A program made the translations under genes and the position numbers. Positions 3,370 through 22,213 of a DNA stretch of 22,686 nt are shown here, piece by piece; the first letter of the stretch is position 1; each line of letters begins with the position of its first letter. Under the pieces are notes generated by a model that saw nothing but the letters and a program-made list of their open reading frames with translations, was not told the DNA's origin and did no database searches. The stretch lies in the IMG/VR virus record IMGVR_UViG_3300023301_000120, positions 1 to 22,686 of that record; one strand, written 5' to 3'. Source of the DNA: a virus.

Positions 3370-3648
3370 TTATTTTTTAGCTTTTCCTGACCGACTATTT
3401 TTTGGTACCGGATCTATTTCCTTAACCGGATCTATTTCCTTGACCGGATCTATTTCCTTAACCGGATCTATTTCCTTAACCGGATCTTCGGCACTTGGCT
3501 CGCACTCCTCGAAAAAATGAGCTAGGGAACTTTCACTTTTGATCCGCTTCTGCGAGTGCGCACCGTGGATGTTGTCCCGGTTAATTAGAGTTCCGTCCGC
3601 AAGAACTACACTCTGTTGTTCGAACTCCTTTTTGAACTTTAGGCTCAT
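3370..3648 (-). CDS. Small hypothetical protein with D-P-V-K-E-I repeats
   Basis: 92 residues from ATG 3648. A start 16 codons upstream (3696) is open but would lie inside the terminator hairpin at 3677-3706, whereas the 3648 start has the A-rich AAAAATAAAAGCT leader typical of this phage. The N-terminal half is charged (M-S-L-K-F-K-K-E-F-E-Q-Q), the middle has an acidic/cysteine patch, and residues about 56-80 are four exact copies of D-P-V-K-E-I, followed by a basic end (R-S-G-K-A-K-K). Low-complexity, probably disordered C-terminus. It sits between the tail-tube candidate and the portal, 3 nt before the portal start. I do not recognise the family; a virion or assembly accessory role is only suggested by position. 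Confidence 0.6.
   Translation of the reverse strand: MSLKFKKEFEQQSVVLADGTLINRDNIHGAHSQKRIKSESSLAHFFEECEPSAEDPVKEIDPVKEIDPVKEIDPVKEIDPVPKNSRSGKAKK
3411..3482 (-). repeat. Four tandem 18-bp coding repeats
   Basis: GATCTATTTCCTTAACCG (plus strand) occurs four times head to tail at 3411, 3429, 3447 and 3465; the second has G for A in TTGACCG. A fifth unit begins (GATCTTC) and diverges. Each unit encodes D-P-V-K-E-I in the minus-strand gene. Near-identity at nucleotide level points to recent expansion. Confidence 0.95.
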
Positions 3649-4380: not shown

Positions 4381-5616
4381 TTACTGAGGTCTGTACAAAG
4401 AAACTTCGGCTGCGTACTTATAAGTAATGTCCGACTTCATACGGTTTTTTACTCGGTATACGTCGTCGCCTGTTACATCGCCTAGGTAGAGCACCCGCGC
4501 ATAGACCTCATCGCTTAATAGATCGAAGCCTAGGAAAACATTGCCTGGGTTCCACACGGCCAACTGGTTATCACTCCAATAAGGCATCGCAACCAGGTCG
4601 ATGTCCAAGTAAGGGATTAAGTCGTTTTGATCAAAGTACCCTTCGCGCGTGAACGACCCACCCTGCCCAGAAATTAATCCGTTTGCAACCCGGTAAGCGT
4701 CCGCTATTCTGTCACTAATGTGAATCTTGGTTCTACCATTCCCTACACCGGATAACTGCTTTTTGATCTTTTGCGGTATGCTCATGTAGACGGATGTCAA
4801 CACACTTAACACGTTGTTCTGGTTAATGAAAAAGCCGGAGCCCTCAGTCGCCGCAGCGCCACCTACTACTGCCTCCTCAATTGTCAAAACGTCCCCGGTA
4901 ATGGATATAACCGTTACGGTTTGGCCTACAATCGTAGCACCCCCGATAGTCTGGTTTCCATTAGTGCCGATGATTGTAACGCGATCACCCACGATTACAT
5001 TAGAAGCATCCGCAAGGGTTACTGTAGCCGAGCCTGCTGCTCCCGTGGCAATTCCAGAGATTGCAGACTTTGCGCTGGCTGGCAACGATTTTTTTGGTAC
5101 CGCTGCGTCTGCAACCATTTCTGGTAGAAGACCAGTATAATCAGCTGCGAAAGTGGCCGTAGCAATCTCCGAGGCGTTAACGCCTGCTTTGCCTAGAATG
5201 TATAGCGCCTCATTAGCGATTGCCATTCGGGGAACGTATATCCTTTCTAGCAAGAAGTTGTACAGTTCCGGAGTAAGCTTGTAATCTTCGAAAGACCCCG
5301 GGCTTTGTTGCTCGGATTCCCAGGTAGTTCGCAATAGGACCGCATCAATTTGGTCCATCACCTCGTATGGCACCATAGTCAACTGCTTTTCGCTTAACGC
5401 GATGTTGCCAGCCTGCGCGTTGAACATTGCACTAGGCGTTTGCAATTCGATTACTCTGTTCACGCCCCTAAGTGTTTCTACATTTTTCACGGATTCAACG
5501 GGAGTAACTAGGCCCCGGTTAACTAGGCCGGTAGGCGCTAGTATGGCCGGGGTGAGGTACTCGGCGTAGAGCTTGCCTGCGTAACTATTTCCGTTTGGAA
5601 AATTAATATATACCAT
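4381..5616 (-). CDS. Major capsid protein with inserted beta domain
   Basis: 411 residues from ATG 5616, with a very A-rich leader (about 35 nt nearly free of G). It forms the icosahedral shell. Residues 1-180 and 265-411 read as a HK97-type core: an N-arm (Y-L-T-P-A-I-L-A-P-T-G), a long spine helix (L-T-P-E-L-Y-N-F-L-L-E-R), and a C-terminal half with D-I-D-L-V-A-M-P-Y-W-S, D-N-Q-L-A-V-W-N-P-G-N-V-F-L-G and a beta-ending E-V-S-L-Y-R-P-Q. Residues about 183-264 are Gly/Ala/Thr/Val-rich with V-G-D-R-V-T-I-I-G-T-N-G-N-Q-T-I and look like a separately folded beta-barrel insertion. It follows the protease/scaffold gene by 39 nt and precedes the tail-tube candidate. Confidence 0.82.
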   Translation of the reverse strand: MVYINFPNGNSYAGKLYAEYLTPAILAPTGLVNRGLVTPVESVKNVETLRGVNRVIELQTPSAMFNAQAGNIALSEKQLTMVPYEVMDQIDAVLLRTTWESEQQSPGSFEDYKLTPELYNFLLERIYVPRMAIANEALYILGKAGVNASEIATATFAADYTGLLPEMVADAAVPKKSLPASAKSAISGIATGAAGSATVTLADASNVIVGDRVTIIGTNGNQTIGGATIVGQTVTVISITGDVLTIEEAVVGGAAATEGSGFFINQNNVLSVLTSVYMSIPQKIKKQLSGVGNGRTKIHISDRIADAYRVANGLISGQGGSFTREGYFDQNDLIPYLDIDLVAMPYWSDNQLAVWNPGNVFLGFDLLSDEVYARVLYLGDVTGDDVYRVKNRMKSDITYKYAAEVSLYRPQ

Positions 5617-7660: not shown

Positions 7661-8139
7661 AAAAGTTATTCGTAATCTTAGTGCTATTTTCTTGGGGTTG
7701 CAAACCGCAAAAGATGATCACCGATACCGTGGTCAAGGATTCGGTAATCATCCGAGAAATTCCCCGGATAGTTGAAATTCCGGGCAAGACAATCTACAGC
7801 CCCTCGGTAGACCTTGACTCCCTGGTGAAAGTGATTCAGTCTGGTGTGAAATCTGAGACAATTAACCGCACCCTCACACTCAGGGATCCGGAGACAAACC
7901 TCAAAGTAGGGCTCCTTATCGACAAGCTTGGCAACATCTCCGCTATCTGCGAGCAACAGGAGCAAACAATCACGCTTTTGGAGCGGGAAATTGAGCGTTT
8001 TCGGGCCGAGACTACTAATACAGAAACGATAAAACAGCCGTCTTTCTGGGATGCTGTAAAGAATATGGCAGTGGTAGGGTCCTGGGTACTGATTGCCATG
8101 GCCGTTTCCTTCGCCGCCGGCTACCTCAGATCCCCCTGA
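7657..8139 (+). CDS. Lipoprotein with C-terminal TM, unimolecular spanin candidate
   Basis: 160 residues from ATG 7657. The N-terminus is a short lipoprotein-type signal (M-K-K-L-F-V-I-L-V-L-F-S-W-G-C) with Cys15 as the lipidation site; the lipobox is loose, as is common in Bacteroidetes. The middle has beta-type and then coiled-coil segments (Q-E-Q-T-I-T-L-L-E-R-E-I-E-R-F at about 101-115). A C-terminal TM helix follows at about 134-156 (V-K-N-M-A-V-V-G-S-W-V-L-I-A-M-A-V-S-F-A-A). An outer-membrane lipid anchor plus an inner-membrane helix in one chain is the plan of u-spanins such as T1 gp11, which fuse the two membranes in the last step of lysis. The 3' end overlaps the convergent tape-measure gene by 19 bp. 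Confidence 0.6.
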   Translation: MKKLFVILVLFSWGCKPQKMITDTVVKDSVIIREIPRIVEIPGKTIYSPSVDLDSLVKVIQSGVKSETINRTLTLRDPETNLKVGLLIDKLGNISAICEQQEQTITLLEREIERFRAETTNTETIKQPSFWDAVKNMAVVGSWVLIAMAVSFAAGYLRSP

Positions 8140-10505
8140 ACCTCGACCATTTTAGACTCTCTTTGCACCCTGTTAAGATCGCTTACTTTTGTGACTATAG
8201 TCAGGCTGCTAATTGCATTCTCGAAGCTTTGTTGTGTATCGCTTAGCGCGCGCCGGTCCAATGATGGAACGCCGGCTCGCGCTACGGCTCCGCCATCCGC
8301 CAAATGCCTTTGCCCGGCACCAGACCAAGACTTGCCTCCATGCTTTTGGTTGAAGCTAGATAGTGCTTTCAACGCTCCAAAGGCGGATCGCTTCATTACA
8401 AATAGGCCTTCGCCTCCCTCCACGTTTGCAACTGTTTGACCACCCAGCGCCACGTCAACCCCTCCACCGCCATGCGAAGGGCCATTTACCTCTATGCCTC
8501 CGCCTTCTTCGAATTTTGGTGGAGGCTTGCTGTTTATTTTCGCCACGTTTGAAAGGCCTTGCGCTACGGTTGCGGCCGCAATTATCTGCCCAAATGGTGG
8601 AGGGATTGTGCCAAGTGCCAAGTTGGCCCCTCGGTAAGTATCTATCAAAGCTTGAAAGCTTGCCGCTATTTTGCCTGCTGCGCTTTGCTCGCCGAACACC
8701 GCCTTGGCTGCATTAAGAACTGCGTCTTGGGCGGCCATCTCTCCGTCCGCGACCTGTTTCGCCACCGCTACCTTGTCTGCGGCAAGCGCTTTGGCCGCGT
8801 TCAGTTCGGCTTTCTGGCTCTCCACTCCGGCGCTAAGCGTTTCGTCCCTTAGTGCCTGGAGCCGTTCTTGCAAACTTGCCTCCAGTTCAATGCGGGTCTC
8901 TGCGTCAATCTCGGCGTTTGCTTGGGTCTGCTCTAATTGCCCTTGCAATGCGGCCGTTCTCGTCTCGATCGCTAAGGCCTCGACTTGGTCAAGCTGTTCT
9001 TGGTAGGTGTCCAGGTCAATGATCCCATCGGCGAACTGTTGTTTCAAGCCGTCCAGTGAGGACTTTATGCCTGCGCTGGTTTCTTGCGCTCTTGCCTCCA
9101 CGGCCTCCGAGTAGTCCGCGTTTATTTTTTCCTGCAAAGCCTTTGAAGTTTTGAGTGCTTCAGCTTCTGCTTTGGACTGCCTGTCCGTCTCGGCCTTTGC
9201 GGATGCGGCATTTTTGTCGGCTGCCACTTTGTTGATCGAATTAAGTTTGTTGTTTAGTTCGATTTGCTTCGTAACACTTTCTTGTTGTAAGTTGGCCAAT
9301 TCTATTTCTGCGTCAATCGCCTTGTTTCTGTCGGCGTCCGTGGAGGTGCTTAGCGCGTTTTTAGCTTTTATGACCTCGATGCGTTCTTCTTGCAGTTCTA
9401 TGGCTTTTTGCTCCAATCCTAATTCCATCGTCAAGGCCTTTTCTGCCGCTGCGGCTCGCGCCTCAGTGCTTAGCGTCACATCGTCGCTGGCTTTTTTGAG
9501 GCTTTCAATTTGTTGGCGGCTTTGCGCACGCTCTAGCGAAAGATCCTTTTCGGCCCTCACTATATCCTGCATGCGCCCTTCCAGAGCGGCAGCCTCCTTG
9601 GCGGCTATTGCAGCGTTTTTTCCAACCTCTAGTATATTAATCCCGTCTATGTTACCAACCGCTTTTGCCACCTTGTCAAAGCCACTTGCCAGCTTATCAA
9701 TATCGAGAGTCAGAAGACCCAACATAATTTCACCTAACCCCTCGAAAACAGGAACGACGTTTTCGATTATCTGCTTGCCTAACCGGCTAAGCTCGTCAAA
9801 CAGCACGGCAGTGAAGGCGCTAACGGCCTCCGTGGCTCGCGCTACAAAGTCCATTCCCTCCTGTGTCTTTGTCAAGTAGCTAACTAGCGAACCCAAGACT
9901 ACTACTATCGCGCCTATGCCTGTCAGTATTAACGCTTTGCCAAATGATCTTGTAGCTATTGTTCCTCCGTCGGTTGCCTTATTAGCAACGCCCTGGGCTA
10001 GGGCTAAGGCTTTTTGCGCTTTGCTGAACAGCCCTGTGCTGTCCGCTGCTTCGACTATCGAGGCGGAGTAGTTACCAACATTCCTGCCCGTCACCCCTAT
10101 CTCGCCTTCAAGTTCTTTGAGGGCGTCGGTTTGCCCAAGCAGCTCCTTTTGGAGCTTCCCCCCTACTTCTATGTTACTCCGCTCCGCCTCGCTTAGGTCA
10201 ACATACTCCTGCTTTAGGCGCGACACGCTCCCCCTGAGTTCGGATATAGAACCCGTGGAGGCACTTTGTACCTTGGCATTAGCATTAAGCACCCTTTGGT
10301 TTTCACGCACCGAAGTGCTTAGGTTCTTTATGGCCGTTTCGCCTTTTACGTATTCAACGGTATTTTTTTTGCCCTGGTTGGCTAGCTCTTTCTGAGCAAC
10401 CTTAAGGCTGTCTATCGCTTTTCGTGAGTCCACTATAGCCGCCTCGCTTCTAGCTATCTGGTTTTCGTCTATCCCAACTTTGAGGAGAATACTTTCTTCT
10501 GCCAT
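8121..10505 (-). CDS. Tape measure protein
   Basis: 794 residues from ATG 10505. It sets tail length and is ejected with the DNA. It is the longest gene here, almost entirely helical and Ala/Glu/Lys/Gln-rich, with heptad-like stretches at about 20-135 and 310-620, one hydrophobic segment at about 190-211 (A-L-I-L-T-G-I-G-A-I-V-V-V-L-G-S-L-V-S-Y), and a Gly-rich C-terminal region (K-F-E-E-G-G-G-I-E-V-N-G-P-S-H-G-G-G-G-V-D-V-A), all typical of Bacteroidetes-type tape measures. The ATG follows a TAA-T-ATG junction identical to that of the duplicated fragment upstream, so this start is well supported. The gene is intact although its first 385 bp also exist as a second copy. Confidence 0.88.
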   Translation of the reverse strand: MAEESILLKVGIDENQIARSEAAIVDSRKAIDSLKVAQKELANQGKKNTVEYVKGETAIKNLSTSVRENQRVLNANAKVQSASTGSISELRGSVSRLKQEYVDLSEAERSNIEVGGKLQKELLGQTDALKELEGEIGVTGRNVGNYSASIVEAADSTGLFSKAQKALALAQGVANKATDGGTIATRSFGKALILTGIGAIVVVLGSLVSYLTKTQEGMDFVARATEAVSAFTAVLFDELSRLGKQIIENVVPVFEGLGEIMLGLLTLDIDKLASGFDKVAKAVGNIDGINILEVGKNAAIAAKEAAALEGRMQDIVRAEKDLSLERAQSRQQIESLKKASDDVTLSTEARAAAAEKALTMELGLEQKAIELQEERIEVIKAKNALSTSTDADRNKAIDAEIELANLQQESVTKQIELNNKLNSINKVAADKNAASAKAETDRQSKAEAEALKTSKALQEKINADYSEAVEARAQETSAGIKSSLDGLKQQFADGIIDLDTYQEQLDQVEALAIETRTAALQGQLEQTQANAEIDAETRIELEASLQERLQALRDETLSAGVESQKAELNAAKALAADKVAVAKQVADGEMAAQDAVLNAAKAVFGEQSAAGKIAASFQALIDTYRGANLALGTIPPPFGQIIAAATVAQGLSNVAKINSKPPPKFEEGGGIEVNGPSHGGGGVDVALGGQTVANVEGGEGLFVMKRSAFGALKALSSFNQKHGGKSWSGAGQRHLADGGAVARAGVPSLDRRALSDTQQSFENAISSLTIVTKVSDLNRVQRESKMVEVQGDLR

Positions 10506-10506
10506 A

Positions 10507-10588
10507 TTAATTCTTTTGTAGTAACTCGATCGTCACGGCAACCGCCACGCCGCCTAACGCCGTAAAGAGTAGTTCAAGTATGCTTTGA
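10507..10588 (-). pseudogene. 3' remnant of the small membrane protein gene
   Basis: 82 bp identical to the end of the intact gene at 10972-11053, including its TAA stop and the TAA-T-ATG junction to the tape measure. It has no start and results from the tandem duplication. Confidence 0.85.
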
Positions 10589-10970
10589 GGGTGTCGGTTT
10601 GCCTAAGCAGCTCCTTCCGAAGTCCCACACCTCTTTGGCCGCTCCGCTCCGTCTCGCTTAGGTTAACATACTCCTGCTTTAGGCGCGACACGCTCCCCCT
10701 GAGTTCGGATATAGAACCCGTGGAGGCACTTTGTACCTTGGCATTAGCATTAAGCACCCTTTGGTTTTCACGCACCGAAGTGCTTAGGTTCTTTATGGCC
10801 GTTTCGCCTTTTACGTATTCAACGGTATTTTTTTTGCCCTGGTTGGCTAGCTCTTTCTGAGCAACCTTAAGGCTGTCTATCGCTTTTCGTGAGTCCACTA
10901 TAGCCGCCTCGCTTCTAGCTATCTGGTTTTCGTCTATCCCAACTTTGAGGAGAATACTTTCTTCTGCCAT
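10554..10970 (-). pseudogene. Truncated duplicate of tape-measure N-terminus
   Basis: 138-codon frame from ATG 10970. The first 110 residues equal the tape measure except V-D-L-S-E-A to V-N-L-S-E-T; residues about 111-121 are altered by the 34-bp patch (S-G-Q-R-G-V-G-L-R-K); after Q-T-D-T-L-K the frame runs into the duplicated membrane-protein remnant out of frame and stops (A-Y-L-N-Y-S-L-R-R). It keeps the same start context as the real gene, so a 138-residue coiled-coil fragment could still be made and might compete with the tape measure. Most simply it is a by-product of duplication. Confidence 0.8.
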
Positions 10971-10971
10971 A

Positions 10972-11250
10972 TTAATTCTTTTGTAGTAACTCGATCGTCA
11001 CGGCAACCGCCACGCCGCCTAACGCCGTAAAGAGTAGTTCAAGTATGCTTTGAAAGGTAACTCGCTTAGTCCTTCCGAAGTCCCACACCTCTTTGGCCGC
11101 TCCGATTTCCGTGGCAGCCCTTATCATTTCGAACGGACTGTTTGTGAAAATAAGCGTGAGCAAAGCCGCTAATACGCCGGCGGGAAAGTGGAGCAGTACC
11201 AGGTCCGCAAAAGGGAACAGGTTCGATATTGTTCTTATTGCTTTTCTCAT
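10972..11250 (-). CDS. Small two- or three-TM membrane protein (DUF2279/VanZ-like pattern)
   Basis: 92 residues from ATG 11250, which overlaps the stop of the upstream tail gene as ATGA (11247-11250); the frame is open 10 codons further up but the coupled start is preferred. Hydrophobic segments lie at about 18-43 (L-V-L-L-H-F-P-A-G-V-L-A-A-L-L-T-L-I-F) and 71-86 (L-E-L-L-F-T-A-L-G-G-V-A-V-A-V). The pattern L-L-H-F..G, A-A-K-E-V-W-D, then L-F-T-A-L-G-G matches small phage membrane proteins with VanZ-like spacing. It stands immediately before the tape measure. A holin is possible, but a second lysis-like cassette exists at 7080-8139, so the role is open. Confidence 0.6.
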   Translation of the reverse strand: MRKAIRTISNLFPFADLVLLHFPAGVLAALLTLIFTNSPFEMIRAATEIGAAKEVWDFGRTKRVTFQSILELLFTALGGVAVAVTIELLQKN

Positions 11251-16119: not shown

Positions 16120-16815
16120 TTATTTTTTAGGCCCTTGGCTTTTTCTTTCTTCGATGCTTCTTAAATTTTCTTGGTATCTACTCTTCGCTAGTTGGTATGT
16201 TAGCTCTAGATACACTTCTTCGGCGGTCCAGTTGTATATATCGTAAGGCCTTGCGTGGTACTTCGCCGCTATGCTTTCGCATATCCCATAGGTTCCAAAA
16301 GTGTGAAGCGCGTCTACCCCGGCCTCCTCCTCTTCGTCGGTCGGCTTTTCGCTACTCAGGTCTTTGAACCGGTTAAGCAATTCGTTAAGATCCTGGTAGA
16401 TCATTGCTCCGAGGGCCAACGCCGGCGCAGCGGGACCGCTTAGGTAGCCCTCCCCAAAGTATATTTCCACAAGGTCAAGAAAGAGCTTGTAAGGTGCTTT
16501 GCCTTCCAACGCCTTTGCCTTTGCGCGCTCTGCCTGCCCGAAAGTGCCTCCCGCAACATCAACCTTTGGCGGGTCGTAGTTTGGTGGCAAGGCATCCGCG
16601 ATCTCGCTTAGCTCGTCTATGAAGCTGACTATCTCATAGAGGGCTAAGACTTCTTCGGTTGTTAAGGCCCCCACCTCTTCGGCGGTTAGGCCGCTAAGTG
16701 CACGAATTACTTGTCTAGGTGTGTGCTTCTTAATACCTATCAGGTCTTCGACCGAAACATCGTTATAGCATTTCGCTATAGAAGTTGCCTTTCGTTTGCC
16801 TTTTGGCTTTGCCAT
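16120..16815 (-). CDS. Hypothetical virion-operon protein, tail assembly chaperone possible
   Basis: 231 residues from ATG 16815. The first 53 bp overlap the terL 3' end in another frame; no other Met is available near the N-terminus. Basic start (M-A-K-P-K-G-K-R-K), a helical middle (E-V-L-A-L-Y-E-I-V-S-F-I-D-E-L-S-E-I), a P-P-N-Y-D-P-P-K linker, an acidic T-D-E-E-E-E-A stretch, and a C-terminal region A-R-P-Y-D-I-Y-N-W-T-A-E-E-V-Y-L-E-L that recalls the 'p...v..w...e' of tail assembly chaperones. No second overlapping reading frame with a slippery site was identified. The function is not established; it may equally be a head or neck component. Confidence 0.5.
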   Translation of the reverse strand: MAKPKGKRKATSIAKCYNDVSVEDLIGIKKHTPRQVIRALSGLTAEEVGALTTEEVLALYEIVSFIDELSEIADALPPNYDPPKVDVAGGTFGQAERAKAKALEGKAPYKLFLDLVEIYFGEGYLSGPAAPALALGAMIYQDLNELLNRFKDLSSEKPTDEEEEAGVDALHTFGTYGICESIAAKYHARPYDIYNWTAEEVYLELTYQLAKSRYQENLRSIEERKSQGPKK

Positions 16816-18034
16816 GGGATTTTCCTTTGTAGTCGGTTTGGTTCATTAGCATAAGATAGGTTAGACCCCAGACAATTGCGTCCACTCGGTTAGGAGAACT
16901 GCCTTTGGTTGGGTCCCAAGTGGTCATTTCTATCTCCAGCTCGTTCAAATTGCCAAAGTGGAATATTTTGCCCTGCTCGTATAGGTTAACAATGGGCTCC
17001 GCCCTCGTTACTTTGCCCCTACTTGCATTCACTTTTTTGTAAGCGATCGTATTATCCACGGATCTGATTACCGCTTCGATGAAGTCCCCGCCGTTGTTTA
17101 CCTCCCCTATAATTATGTTTGCCTTCCATTTGTGATACAGCCTAATCGCTTGTGTTGCCATTCCGTTTGGTGTATAGATCCCACTTGCGTCGTCGAACAC
17201 ATACCCATTGCCATCTACGCCTAAGCCGACAGCCAATATTCCATGTTCGTCGGACTTCGGGTCCGATGTTACGGCTGGGTCAATTGGTATTGCTATCCTT
17301 TTCATTGCCGGCAGCTCAGGTACATTCTTAATTATGCCATAGCTCCACAACGCCCCCTCGACATCTTCGTAGTCCAACCCTTCAAAGTCCCGGTCGTATT
17401 TCTTCCGGTTTTTCTCTTTGACGGCAAGCCTTTTCTGGTGCCAAGATTCCGAAAGGTTTGTATAGTTGTCTCGGAAGGTACTTATTACTCGGTCGGTCAT
17501 GCCGTGGTAGAGTCCGTCAGGCTCAAAAAATTGCTTGTACTGCCAAGACTGCTTGTGTAGCGCGTTGGATACCAGAACTATCTTGTTTGAAGCTATTATA
17601 GATCTAATCGACTCGTCGAGCTTGTCGAATGAGTCTTGGTCCGGGTGCTCTTCGAACTCGTCGTATATAACGTCAGTTAGCCCTTGTATTGATTTCAGGT
17701 TTGCCGTTTGGTTAAGGGAGGAAGCCTTCACGCCCTTGAATATTATCTTCGACCCGGTGGCCTTGTTTGTAATCTCGGAACCAGATATATGGAAATTATC
17801 CCTGCAGGAGTTGACGTCCATTTGCGTTTCAAATTCTGGAACTATGGACACATAGGCGGATACCATTGTATATCTCAGGAATAGAACAACCCTGCCGGTG
17901 TCAAAGGTAAGTCGTAGGGCGTAATCAGATATTGCAAAAGATTTGCCAGACCCCCGCCCGCCCTTCTCGTAGACATACCTTTGCGTGGAGGCATACAATG
18001 CCTTGTGCTTATCGTTAATCCTTGGCACCTGCAA
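16763..18034 (-). CDS. terL: Terminase large subunit
   Basis: Up to 423 residues. It is the ATP-driven motor and nuclease that cuts and packages DNA. Walker A G-G-R-G-S-G-K-S at 25-32, Walker B V-I-Y-D-E at 122-126, coupling motif V-L-V-S-N at 153-157. The nuclease domain shows D252 (I-P-I-D-P-A-V-T), E311 (I-I-G-E-V-N-N-G-G-D) and D385 in S-P-N-R-V-D-A-I-V-W-G, the last typical of the Terminase_6C type. There is no ATG: a stop lies 9 nt upstream of TTG 18034, and GTG 18028 is the other option; both fall inside the end of terS, so TerL is translationally coupled to TerS with a non-ATG start. Confidence 0.93.
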   Translation of the reverse strand: MQVPRINDKHKALYASTQRYVYEKGGRGSGKSFAISDYALRLTFDTGRVVLFLRYTMVSAYVSIVPEFETQMDVNSCRDNFHISGSEITNKATGSKIIFKGVKASSLNQTANLKSIQGLTDVIYDEFEEHPDQDSFDKLDESIRSIIASNKIVLVSNALHKQSWQYKQFFEPDGLYHGMTDRVISTFRDNYTNLSESWHQKRLAVKEKNRKKYDRDFEGLDYEDVEGALWSYGIIKNVPELPAMKRIAIPIDPAVTSDPKSDEHGILAVGLGVDGNGYVFDDASGIYTPNGMATQAIRLYHKWKANIIIGEVNNGGDFIEAVIRSVDNTIAYKKVNASRGKVTRAEPIVNLYEQGKIFHFGNLNELEIEMTTWDPTKGSSPNRVDAIVWGLTYLMLMNQTDYKGKSHGKAKRQTKGNFYSEML

Positions 18035-18491
18035 CCCACTCTATAGGCTTAATCCCTGTCGCTTTTAGGCTGGTGGCGTTCACTGTCTTGTCAGCTAGTC
18101 CAAGGTCCCTGGCAATTATAGAGGCGTTATACAGCCCGGCAGCTGCCCCTTCAAGCTTCCTTTCGTACATTATCTCCCTTGCGCACGTTATGACGTGAGT
18201 AAATTCTTTTCGCTTTTCGTACTCCAGAAAGGTTGGTAGCGTTATGCCTAGCCATATGCAAAGCCCCTCAACGGTTGTGCACCTTGCCAGGGTCCGCTTA
18301 AAGCTCTTAACCATTTCCTTGCCGCCCTCGCCTTTTAGTTTGATAAGCTGGGTTTCATATAGCGGGTTGGACTCAACGTCGCTAAAGTAAGCCGCTATGG
18401 CGTTAGCAAGGTCCTCCGGCTTCTCGAAGATCTTCGCCCGACCACTGAACAGTCTGGCTTTCCAGTATTCGTTTCCTTTTGGTGCTCCCAT
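18015..18491 (-). CDS. terS: Terminase small subunit (gp3-type DNA packaging protein)
   Basis: 158 residues from ATG 18491. The N-terminus M-G-A-P-K-G-N-E-Y-W-K-A-R is the signature of the P22 gp3-type DNA-packaging family ('GaPkGN.yw..r'). A helical centre with a helix-turn-helix-like V-E-G-L-C-I-W-L-G-I-T-L-P-T-F-L-E-Y-E segment (about 83-101) would recognise the packaging start site. The C-terminus (L-G-L-A-D-K-T-V-N-A) is the oligomer/TerL contact region in this family. It overlaps terL by 20 bp. First virion gene after the non-coding region 18492-18866, so a promoter, and perhaps the packaging site, lies there. Confidence 0.85.
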   Translation of the reverse strand: MGAPKGNEYWKARLFSGRAKIFEKPEDLANAIAAYFSDVESNPLYETQLIKLKGEGGKEMVKSFKRTLARCTTVEGLCIWLGITLPTFLEYEKRKEFTHVITCAREIMYERKLEGAAAGLYNASIIARDLGLADKTVNATSLKATGIKPIEWVAGAKD

Positions 18492-18559
18492 CTCATATTA
18501 TTTTTGTTTGTAATTTTACAAATATTCCCGGCAAAAAGCAAATGTAAACAAAGCCATTT

Positions 18560-18784
18560 CTTTGTTTACAAGCTAACTGCCTAACGATCAGCTGTTTATA
18601 CCGAATTGTAAACAAAGTAACAAGGATTCCCTTAATAGTGTGTAGCTGGTAGGGGTGTCTTCTTTTTACCTCCCTATAATACCACCACCCCCCTTACTAC
18701 TCTATATCTTTTATATATATATTGTTTATTGTTTACAATAGTAGATAGCGCGTTGATATTCAGGCAGTTAGCTTGTAAACAAAG
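18560..18784. repeat. 23-bp perfect inverted repeat, arms 179 bp apart
   Basis: The arm 18560-18582 is the exact reverse complement of 18762-18784. Each arm contains CTTTGTTTACA plus the adjoining AGCTAACTGCC, so the match extends well past the short motif. A second, nested pair is AGAGGTAAACAA (18783-18794) with TTGTTTACCTCT (18804-18815). Confidence 0.9.
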
Positions 18785-18823
18785 AGGTAAACAAAGACTT
18801 TTATTGTTTACCTCTCTTAAACG

Positions 18824-18844
18824 CAAAAAGTGCCCGTAGGCACT
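18824..18844 (-). terminator. Rho-independent terminator closing the DNA metabolism module
   Basis: On the minus strand AGTGCC (18844-18839), loop TACG, GGCACT (18834-18829), then TTTT (18828-18825). It lies 22 nt after the stop of the 59-residue gene and before the non-coding cluster. Confidence 0.75.
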
Positions 18845-18866
18845 CTCAATGATTATACTTATATTT

Positions 18867-19541: not shown

Positions 19542-20075
19542 TTAAGATTTAATTTTGCAGGGCATAATTATAGCACGGCCGCTCCCTGTTATTTCAGTCA
19601 CTTCTACGGCTACGCATTCCCCAAAGAACTTGAAGCGCAGTGGCCCTGCCAGCACCTTGCAAAGCTTTGCAAGGTGCTCGGACGCCAGGCCTATCTGGTG
19701 AACCGGGTCGCCGCTTTCAGTCGGCCAAACCTGATCGAAGGCAGGAAACCTAAAGCCCTCAGCACTCGGAGCCACTATGTGAATCGTTCGCTTCGTTCCG
19801 TCTCTAAGGGTCCCGGTCAGAGTTTCGAAGTCCTTGTCTATTATAACGCTTTGGACTGACTTCACTGTTAACTTCTCCCAGTCCTTTGGCTCCACGGCAA
19901 AATCTACAGGGTCCTTGGACTCGACCCCTAAGTCTATGTAGAACCCTGTTGGGTACCTCACTACTATATGCCCATCGGTGGCTTGTATGTACTTTTCAGT
20001 GATTTGTATGTGCTTATAGCTCTCTCTAATCTCGCCTTTATTCGGGACTAAATGTAATTTCGGTAATGCTTGCAT
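19542..20075 (-). CDS. Short sliding-clamp-like (DnaN-type) protein
   Basis: 177 residues from ATG 20075. Residues 28-37 read K-Y-I-Q-A-T-D-G-H-I, matching the DnaN 'ATDGHRL' block. Further on, F-R-F-P-A-F-D-Q-V-W-P-T (about 108-119) matches the 'yPd...v.P' of the beta clamp, and the end A-V-E-V-T-E-I-T-G-S-G-R-A-I-I-M-P (about 155-171) matches the terminal strand with its 'MP' that packs at the clamp's partner site. Two clamp-type domains of about 90 residues fit, against three in bacterial DnaN (about 366 residues). It would tether polymerase or helicase/nuclease to DNA. Position directly after the SNF2 helicase fits. Family call from motifs only. Confidence 0.6.
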   Translation of the reverse strand: MQALPKLHLVPNKGEIRESYKHIQITEKYIQATDGHIVVRYPTGFYIDLGVESKDPVDFAVEPKDWEKLTVKSVQSVIIDKDFETLTGTLRDGTKRTIHIVAPSAEGFRFPAFDQVWPTESGDPVHQIGLASEHLAKLCKVLAGPLRFKFFGECVAVEVTEITGSGRAIIMPCKIKS

Positions 20076-20095: not shown

Positions 20096-21514
20096 TTATT
20101 CATATTTTTTGATTAGATCCTTAACCGCGCCAACCAGCCCGGTGTCTGCCTTAACGGCTTCTATTAGTTCGCCTTCTGTTAGGTCTTTCTTTTGCAGGGA
20201 GTCGACCACCCTTTCATCGAGCGTCTTACTTACTATAATCCGGTATATGAAGACCTGCTTGGCTTTCTGCCCCTGCCTCCACAGCCTAGCAATTAGCTGC
20301 TTGTACAACTCCAAAGACCAATTAAGCCCGAACCATACGACGTAGTTACTGCCATTTTGTAGGTTGAGCCCATGGCCGCCACTGGCGGGGTGGAGGACTA
20401 GCATGTCAACAAGCCCGGCGTTCCAGTCGTCTATGTCTTGATGCCCAGTGAGCTGCCTAACATCTATTTTCTTACTGTACTTTGCCAAGATACGGGCAGC
20501 GTCGTGCTTGAATGCCACTGCAACAAGTAACGGCTTACCGTTTGCCGCCTCGCGTATCTCCTCCAAGGCGTCGAGCTTAAGGTCGTGCACCTTGTGGATG
20601 TTGCGGTCCTCGTCGTATAAGGCACCATTCCCGAACTGCAGCAACTTATTCGACAGAGCCGCCGCAGTTGCCACGCTTATTTCCTTCTCACCCAATTCGC
20701 TAATTAGGCTCAGCACTAATTCCTTTTCGAAGGTCTTGTACTTTTCAGTTAGATCTGCGTCAAAGTGCAGGAGATGATCTACTATTATTTTCTCCGGCAT
20801 GTCCAGATAGTCCTCCGCCTTCATGCTTATGCATATATCGCCTATCGCCTTGTGGATCCTGTTAGAGGAGCCCTCATCCTTAAGTGCATAGCTGTAGACT
20901 ACGCTTGCATTGCGTTTGTCCGGTTTGAAGTAGGTCTCTCGGAACCTGCCGATGCTATGGCCTAACCGCTCCCCACCATCGAGCAGGTACACTTGTGACC
21001 AGAGGTCTATTAGGCCGTTTGGGGCTGGCGTACCCGTCAACCCAACGACCCTGTTAACCGAACTACAAACGCGCTTAAGCGCTTTGAACCTTTGGCTTTT
21101 GTGGTTTTTGAAACTGCTCAGTTCGTCGAGTATGACCATATCGAAGGGCACGAAGCTCCCACCATACAGGTCACAGAGCCAAGGCACGTTATCCCGACTA
21201 ATCAAAAAAACCTCCGCTTCAACCTCCAGAGCAGCGCGCCGTTTCTTTTCGGGGCCTGATACCAAACTAAAAGTAAGGCTCTTTGTATGAGCCCATTTTT
21301 TGGCCTCCTGTTGCCATACACTTTCGACCACCCGCTTAGGCGCGACTACCAGAACGCGGTCTACTTCCAGGCTGTTGATTAATTCGCATATGGCTGTTAG
21401 GGTGGTTACCGTTTTGCCAAGTCCCATGTCTAAGAACAGACCAGCCCCGAGGTTGTCAATTATATGCTTTTTGCCGTAGCGCTGGTAGTCGTGGAGGTTG
21501 CTAATGTCTAGCAT
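20096..21514 (-). CDS. SNF2-family DNA helicase/ATPase
   Basis: 472 residues from ATG 21514. Motifs in order: a Q-motif-like L-H-D-Y-Q-R-Y-G at 7-14, Walker A D-M-G-L-G-K-T (29-35), V-V-A-P-K (56-60), D-E-L-S in place of DEAH (130-133), G-L-T-G-T-P (158-163), and in the second half L-H-P-A-S-G-G-H-G-L-N-L-Q (about 375-387) and Q-L-I-A-R-L-W-R-Q-G-Q (about 407-417). This is the standard SNF2/Rad54 order of phage helicases that translocate on double-stranded DNA. The first 14 bp overlap the upstream 88-residue gene. Pairing with a VRR-NUC nuclease two genes upstream is common in phages. Confidence 0.92.
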   Translation of the reverse strand: MLDISNLHDYQRYGKKHIIDNLGAGLFLDMGLGKTVTTLTAICELINSLEVDRVLVVAPKRVVESVWQQEAKKWAHTKSLTFSLVSGPEKKRRAALEVEAEVFLISRDNVPWLCDLYGGSFVPFDMVILDELSSFKNHKSQRFKALKRVCSSVNRVVGLTGTPAPNGLIDLWSQVYLLDGGERLGHSIGRFRETYFKPDKRNASVVYSYALKDEGSSNRIHKAIGDICISMKAEDYLDMPEKIIVDHLLHFDADLTEKYKTFEKELVLSLISELGEKEISVATAAALSNKLLQFGNGALYDEDRNIHKVHDLKLDALEEIREAANGKPLLVAVAFKHDAARILAKYSKKIDVRQLTGHQDIDDWNAGLVDMLVLHPASGGHGLNLQNGSNYVVWFGLNWSLELYKQLIARLWRQGQKAKQVFIYRIIVSKTLDERVVDSLQKKDLTEGELIEAVKADTGLVGAVKDLIKKYE

Positions 21515-21769: not shown

Positions 21770-22213
21770 TTAGTGTTTATCCATTAAGTAATTAAGTATT
21801 TTGAGGTCATAGTGCCCTAGGTCGTCCGAACTGTCCCTGCTTTTCACCTCCTCCCGAGCCCTTTGCAGCTCCCACCTTTCGGCATTCTCTTCGCCGGTTA
21901 GCTTGCCTGGTGATTCATCCAGTACGTATGAGACCCGCACGGCGGCCAGCAAGTCGGACACCATCGCCTCGCTGTTGGCTACATACACTCTTATCCCCAG
22001 GGCTTCTATCTTCTTGGCTACGAATAATTGCCGGGGCCTAAGCTTCAGGCCTTCGCCTTTCACCTCCACGAAAAACACAAGCCCACCGGGTAGGATGATC
22101 AGCCGGTCCGGTATGCCGGCAAAGAACGTGGCCGGAAACTTAAGGCACATGCCACCCACCTTCTCGATGCCCACTTTTAGGCGCGCTTCTATTTTCTTTT
22201 CCGACGAGGTCAC
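21770..22213 (-). CDS. VRR-NUC domain nuclease
   Basis: 147 residues from GTG 22213, overlapping the methyltransferase stop as GTGA. The VRR-NUC fold is clear: an N-terminal helix with S-E-K-K-I-E-A-R-L, then F-F-A-G-I-P-D-R-L-I-I-L (Asp36), V-F-F-V-E-V-K-G-E-G (Glu50, Lys52), and L-R-P-R-Q-L-F-V-A-K (Gln62). These are the metal-binding and catalytic residues of the PD-(D/E)XK type. Phage VRR-NUC proteins act on branched DNA and usually pair with an SNF2 helicase, as here. The C-terminal 50 residues are an extra charged tail. Confidence 0.88.
   Translation of the reverse strand: MTSSEKKIEARLKVGIEKVGGMCLKFPATFFAGIPDRLIILPGGLVFFVEVKGEGLKLRPRQLFVAKKIEALGIRVYVANSEAMVSDLLAAVRVSYVLDESPGKLTGEENAERWELQRAREEVKSRDSSDDLGHYDLKILNYLMDKH

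Follow-up and report, generated by a model that had tools for sequence, protein, structure and literature searches.

An iteron cluster ahead of terS is a probable replication origin of a tailed phage

Introduction

The window analysed here is the whole of a 22.7-kb virus record (IMG/VR record IMGVR_UViG_3300023301_000120, 22,686 nt), in which almost every gene lies on the minus strand. Its largest intergenic gap, 375 bp at 18492-18866 ahead of the gene terS, carries seven copies of the heptamer GTAAACA, which raises the question of what this non-coding stretch does for the phage. A sequence-only reading had placed the gap between an operon terminator and terS, in agreement with the hairpin and T-run found on its far side, and had kept repressor operators, origin iterons and a pac-like packaging site as three open functions. 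Comparison with relatives strongly favors the iterons, disfavors packaging and grants operators a secondary role at most. The gap is most likely the start site of phage DNA copying, because the same layout with a phage-specific site recurs in many phages and is annotated as an origin in Streptococcus phage Sfi21. Specifically, the gap is in our view probably an iteron-type replication origin with the layout of Sfi21, Staphylococcus aureus pathogenicity islands (SaPIs) and phage-inducible chromosomal islands (PICIs), at which a VapE-type initiator would bind and start replication.

Results

The gap contains a near-symmetric iteron cluster

The window holds ten copies of GTAAACA, seven of them within 268 bp (18544-18811), where 0.036 would be expected from the density in the rest of the window (Poisson P = 1.5e-14). 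Dinucleotide shuffling of the gap never produced seven copies (0 of 5000), and no 7-mer rose above five copies in 400 shuffles. The full 11-base site, TGTAAACAAAG, occurs on the plus strand at 18543-18553, at 18607-18617 as the inner site toward terS, and at 18774-18784; at 18560-18570 (minus strand) it forms the inverted partner of the first site. The inner site across the core, away from terS, reads TTGTAAACAATA (18727-18738, minus strand) and adjoins a degenerate TAAACAA (18722-18728). A tandem site, GTAAACAAAG, follows at 18787-18796 (plus strand), 12 bp after the site at 18774-18784, and GTAAACA at 18805-18811 (minus strand) closes the outer inverted pair (hairpin AGAGGTAAACAA / TTGTTTACCTCT). 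Successive spacings are 19-45-122-45-12-18, near-symmetric about a 122-bp core.

Two 23-bp arms (18560-18582 and 18762-18784) repeat each other exactly in inverted orientation and lie within a 57-nt inverted repeat (77%). Between them, toward one side of the core, A+T content reaches 77% at 18690-18745 compared to 52% window-wide, and the stretch 18700-18728 is the putative melting region. The boxes AGGGGTGT (18651-18658) and CACCCCCC (18686-18693) of the core form a G4/C4 inverted pair that is common to six aligned relatives. The sequence-only reading had already described the seven copies, the 23-bp arms and the AT-rich core, and all three stood up to recounting, as did the expectation that the motif is not similarly dense elsewhere. 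Its two palindromes are inverted repeats of a less perfect kind: the one at 18543-18570 is not a perfect 28-bp palindrome but two 11-bp arms around a 6-nt spacer, and the 16-bp one ahead of terS (18507-18522) consists of two 7-bp arms around TT (TTTGTAA-TT-TTACAAA). A search of IMG/VR with the exact palindrome found no further contig, and a DNA similarity search against annotated phages returned short low-complexity matches only.

All sites change together in close relatives

Three loci related through terS (L017-L019, 72% identity) have the same gap before this gene. Their sites read TGGCAACAAAG or near it, with eight copies of GGCAACA, and both flanks keep the hairpin-plus-tandem arrangement. 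In four further loci (L024, L025, L026 and L133), whose terS versions differ and are 40-50% identical to that of L017, GTAAACAA is retained at the same place, and the core AGGGG.GT...CCCC is retained in six aligned sequences. Hence, of the conservation that the sequence-only reading had called for, the arrangement is present and the exact motif is not: every site shifts from TGTAAACAAAG to TGGCAACAAAG while layout and core stay. Since all sites change together, one trans-acting binder is implied, and the coordinated change with constant layout and core would be the product of a co-evolving DNA-binding protein. In relatives detected through terL (L005-L012) the gap is absent, and terS and the early-gene set are different. 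A scan of genome contigs with the helicase found no relative. In L014, also related through terL but with another replication module, TGTAAAA occurs 14 times within 300 bp (4508-4803).

Equivalent clusters follow vapE in wider relatives

A de novo search of helicase relatives for 7-mers repeated in both orientations revealed clusters at about 35 loci, each built on a motif of its own (GTAAACA, GTCTACA, GTCAACA, GTTACAA, AGCAACA, TGATGCA, GTAGTCA and others). In Firmicutes-type loci the cluster begins 0-70 bp past the vapE stop codon and ends before the VRR-NUC gene. When the first 350 bp downstream of the vapE stop codon were scored in relatives with vapE for at least six copies of one 6-mer, 24 of 53 post-vapE stretches were positive, compared to 17 of 1168 control stretches, several of the 17 being displaced clusters themselves. 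Post-vapE clusters occur in phages of the Firmicutes and Actinobacteria types that share the replication genes, including phages of Staphylococcus, Clostridioides, Paenibacillus (Bloomfield) and Corynebacterium (StAB). The VapE protein of L017 contains a VapE-like domain (PF05272) and matches a solved helicase described as 'similar to D. nodosus vapE' (E 3e-72).

The place of these clusters by vapE is identical to that of the Sfi21 origin. In Sfi21 (NC_000872), 34487-34784 is annotated as 'origin of replication, 302 bp non-coding region, phage inhibitory sequence'; it overlaps the end of a D5/VapE-like primase gene, and a cos site is annotated elsewhere. Here, nine AGTAAC copies in the two orientations surround an AT core. 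The gap in the window shares the size of about 300 bp of non-coding DNA, short iterons in both orientations, the AT-rich core and the association with a replication module that, in this phage group as in Sfi21, combines a D5/VapE-type primase-helicase with a helicase gene. It differs in its iteron, TGTAAACAAAG instead of AGTAAC, and in lying upstream of terS rather than at the 3' end of the primase-helicase gene.

In SaPIs and PICIs, an AT-rich melting region lies between two sets of iterons just 3' of the initiator gene, and the Pri-Rep-ori segment is able to drive autonomous replication (PMC6092414). Relatives of the window phage encode related VapE/Rep initiators. Unlike the single PICI origin immediately 3' of rep, the element here is displaced from vapE and present in two copies in complete Bacteroidetes relatives, and it belongs to tailed phages, not to satellites.

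Bacteroidetes phages carry two copies of the element

Two clusters with the same iteron were found in Croceibacter phage P2559Y, Bacteroides phages SJC14, BU241P1 and BT2, Phocaeicola phages BV674P5 and BV737P3, and the IMG/VR records behind L029, L034, L036, L039 and L102. One cluster precedes the early module and the other lies between the early genes and terS. The iteron is shared by both copies within a genome and differs between genomes (GTAAACAATG in P2559Y), and paired copies are about 65-83% alike in their aligned part. The two copies of BC669P1 are 81% similar with weaker motifs; in this phage and in BK735P2 the shared motif is weak, and in PM682P4 the shared-motif method detected no exact iteron common to two copies. 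The gaps of the six named phages with two clusters match that of the window in layout and in their place before terS; they differ in that a second copy also precedes the early module, whereas the window fragment shows one.

The window contig ends short of vapE and of any second copy of the element. What it shows is the terS-side copy, just upstream of the adjoining late genes, and by analogy this phage would carry a second one. A search for a second contig of this phage bearing the early-side copy found none; one candidate, L132, proved to be a chance match to DNA without replication or terminase genes, and L120, the longest L017-type contig, stops short of the start of the early module. The 11.8-kb contig L031 (1-11805) spans the early module, starts inside an iteron cluster and has two further iterons at its end; these ends are compatible with an assembly break at two copies of a repeated element. 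Directly after the early-side cluster of Bacteroidetes phages (L102 676-1089, L113 and L115), small XRE-like helix-turn-helix (HTH) proteins with the motif LFPDxKxPxxAxxRILKGE are encoded, which are candidate regulators.

Gene context and further features of the window

Along the direction of transcription, the window encodes the end of a methyltransferase, a VRR-NUC nuclease (21770-22213) and an SNF2-type helicase (20096-21514; phrog_62), both of the replication module, and small genes. A hairpin with a T-run (about 18824-18846; fold, z -2.8) terminates this operon and bounds the gap, whose other border is the start codon of terS (18015-18491; PF16677 GP3_package, phrog_606). Then follow terL (16763-18034) and head and tail genes, and all of these features are on the minus strand. 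Rfam gave no RNA family match. A 177-aa protein (19542-20075) is 46% identical in L017 and matches PHROG 3007 (RusA-like resolvase, E 9e-11), with no Pfam match.

Among the structural genes, the start of a tape-measure-like gene (8121-10970) is duplicated in tandem (10573-11000 and 10107-10535, 95% identical), leaving a truncated 138-aa copy, either as a recent event or as an assembly artefact. An open-ended open reading frame (ORF) at 2-1450 consists of repeats of about 17 residues (TTGSxNSFFGRSAGAAN) and encodes a tail-fibre-like repeat protein, and 18-bp tandem repeats (VKEIDP) at 3407-3487 form the C-terminus of a 108-aa ORF.

Discussion

By analogy with SaPI and PICI initiators, the two mirrored sets of TGTAAACAAAG flanking the AT-rich core would both be bound by a VapE-type primase-helicase (superfamily 3/AAA+) encoded outside the fragment. 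VapE would melt the core and load itself as the replicative helicase, and helicase and phage polymerase A would then begin replication. In Bacteroidetes phages the element would act apart from vapE, in two copies, one on each side of the early module. Several observations weigh against an origin. The window is without vapE, as the contig ends first, and the nearest phage with both initiator and site is L017/L120. In the clade of the window the cluster is not beside vapE, unlike the PICI rule; in L017/L120 vapE ends about 4 kb upstream. The gap lies between the minus-strand early operon and terS and not immediately 3' of the initiator gene. The change in GC skew that the sequence-only reading had suggested looking for did not appear, skew being monotonic with no signal in the window or in three cultured relatives. 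Furthermore, a Mantel test did not tie the iteron sequence specifically to the VapE C-terminus. The C-terminal domain of SaPI Rep is the one that binds iterons (PMC7581432). The N-terminal part of VapE correlates better with the iteron than the C-terminus, which probably reflects phylogeny.

The cluster could alternatively be an operator array through which a phage regulator, such as the small XRE-like HTH protein, switches early and late promoters, with no origin involved. In its favor, each of the two copies in Bacteroidetes phages immediately precedes an operon, the early one is followed by small HTH-like genes in L039, L036 and L102, and a possible terS promoter, a consensus match at 18521-18548 on the minus strand, overlaps the outermost iteron. 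Yet in Firmicutes and Actinobacteria phages the clusters sit after vapE within the replication operon, not at an operon start where a promoter would be located. In Staphylococcus phage phiSa2wa the repeat of the CI/Cro region (TACGAAA) differs from the post-vapE repeat; Sfi21 is annotated as having an origin there; and asymmetric sites at variable spacing are unlike dimer operators. Purely as operators, the sites are thus less likely than as an origin, and we consider that function improbable; a regulatory role alongside the origin is possible. A pac or cos site recognized by TerS would account for the position directly upstream of terS. P1 pac, which lies inside a terS-like gene and is cleaved by terminase, has clusters of short sites on both sides of the cut. 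The two clusters about a centre near terS resemble this arrangement, but the window relatives have the cluster far from terS. Many have it kilobases away, beside vapE or before the early genes, so its position does not follow terS; a second copy lies far from this gene in P2559Y and the Bacteroides phages, and the cos site of Sfi21 is annotated separately. Because the cluster is far from terS in so many relatives, packaging is very unlikely to be its function. Even less credible is a repeat element without replicative role, such as an insertion resembling a miniature inverted-repeat transposable element or structural hairpins. The exact 23-bp inverted repeats flanking the core would fit it, but the layout is conserved despite diverged sequence and iterons, no further copies occur in the window and no matching element was found in annotated phages.

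Returning to the replication origin, the paired copies in Bacteroidetes phages could be two direct-repeat origins bracketing the early/replication module. Through initiation at one or the other, or through recombination of the pair, the module could be amplified or cut out as a mini-replicon, and replication could be tied to the adjacent early and late promoters. We regard this as a speculative and rather unlikely extension; it is compatible with the L031 contig ends, as is an assembly break.

The origin type itself is already known. A limited literature search found neither the displaced two-copy arrangement of Bacteroidetes phages nor a PICI-like layout so widespread among tailed phages, and origin annotation was absent from all Bacteroidetes phage records examined. 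Our results provide a rule for candidate origins: look in the largest gaps ahead of the early module and of terS, or immediately behind vapE, for a phage-specific iteron present in both orientations around an AT core. This rule locates candidates in dozens of genomes, several of which belong to cultured phages, and there initiator specificity, incompatibility and origin-titration resistance become directly testable. That tailed phages from three bacterial phyla show the layout suggests one origin system common to satellites and phages.
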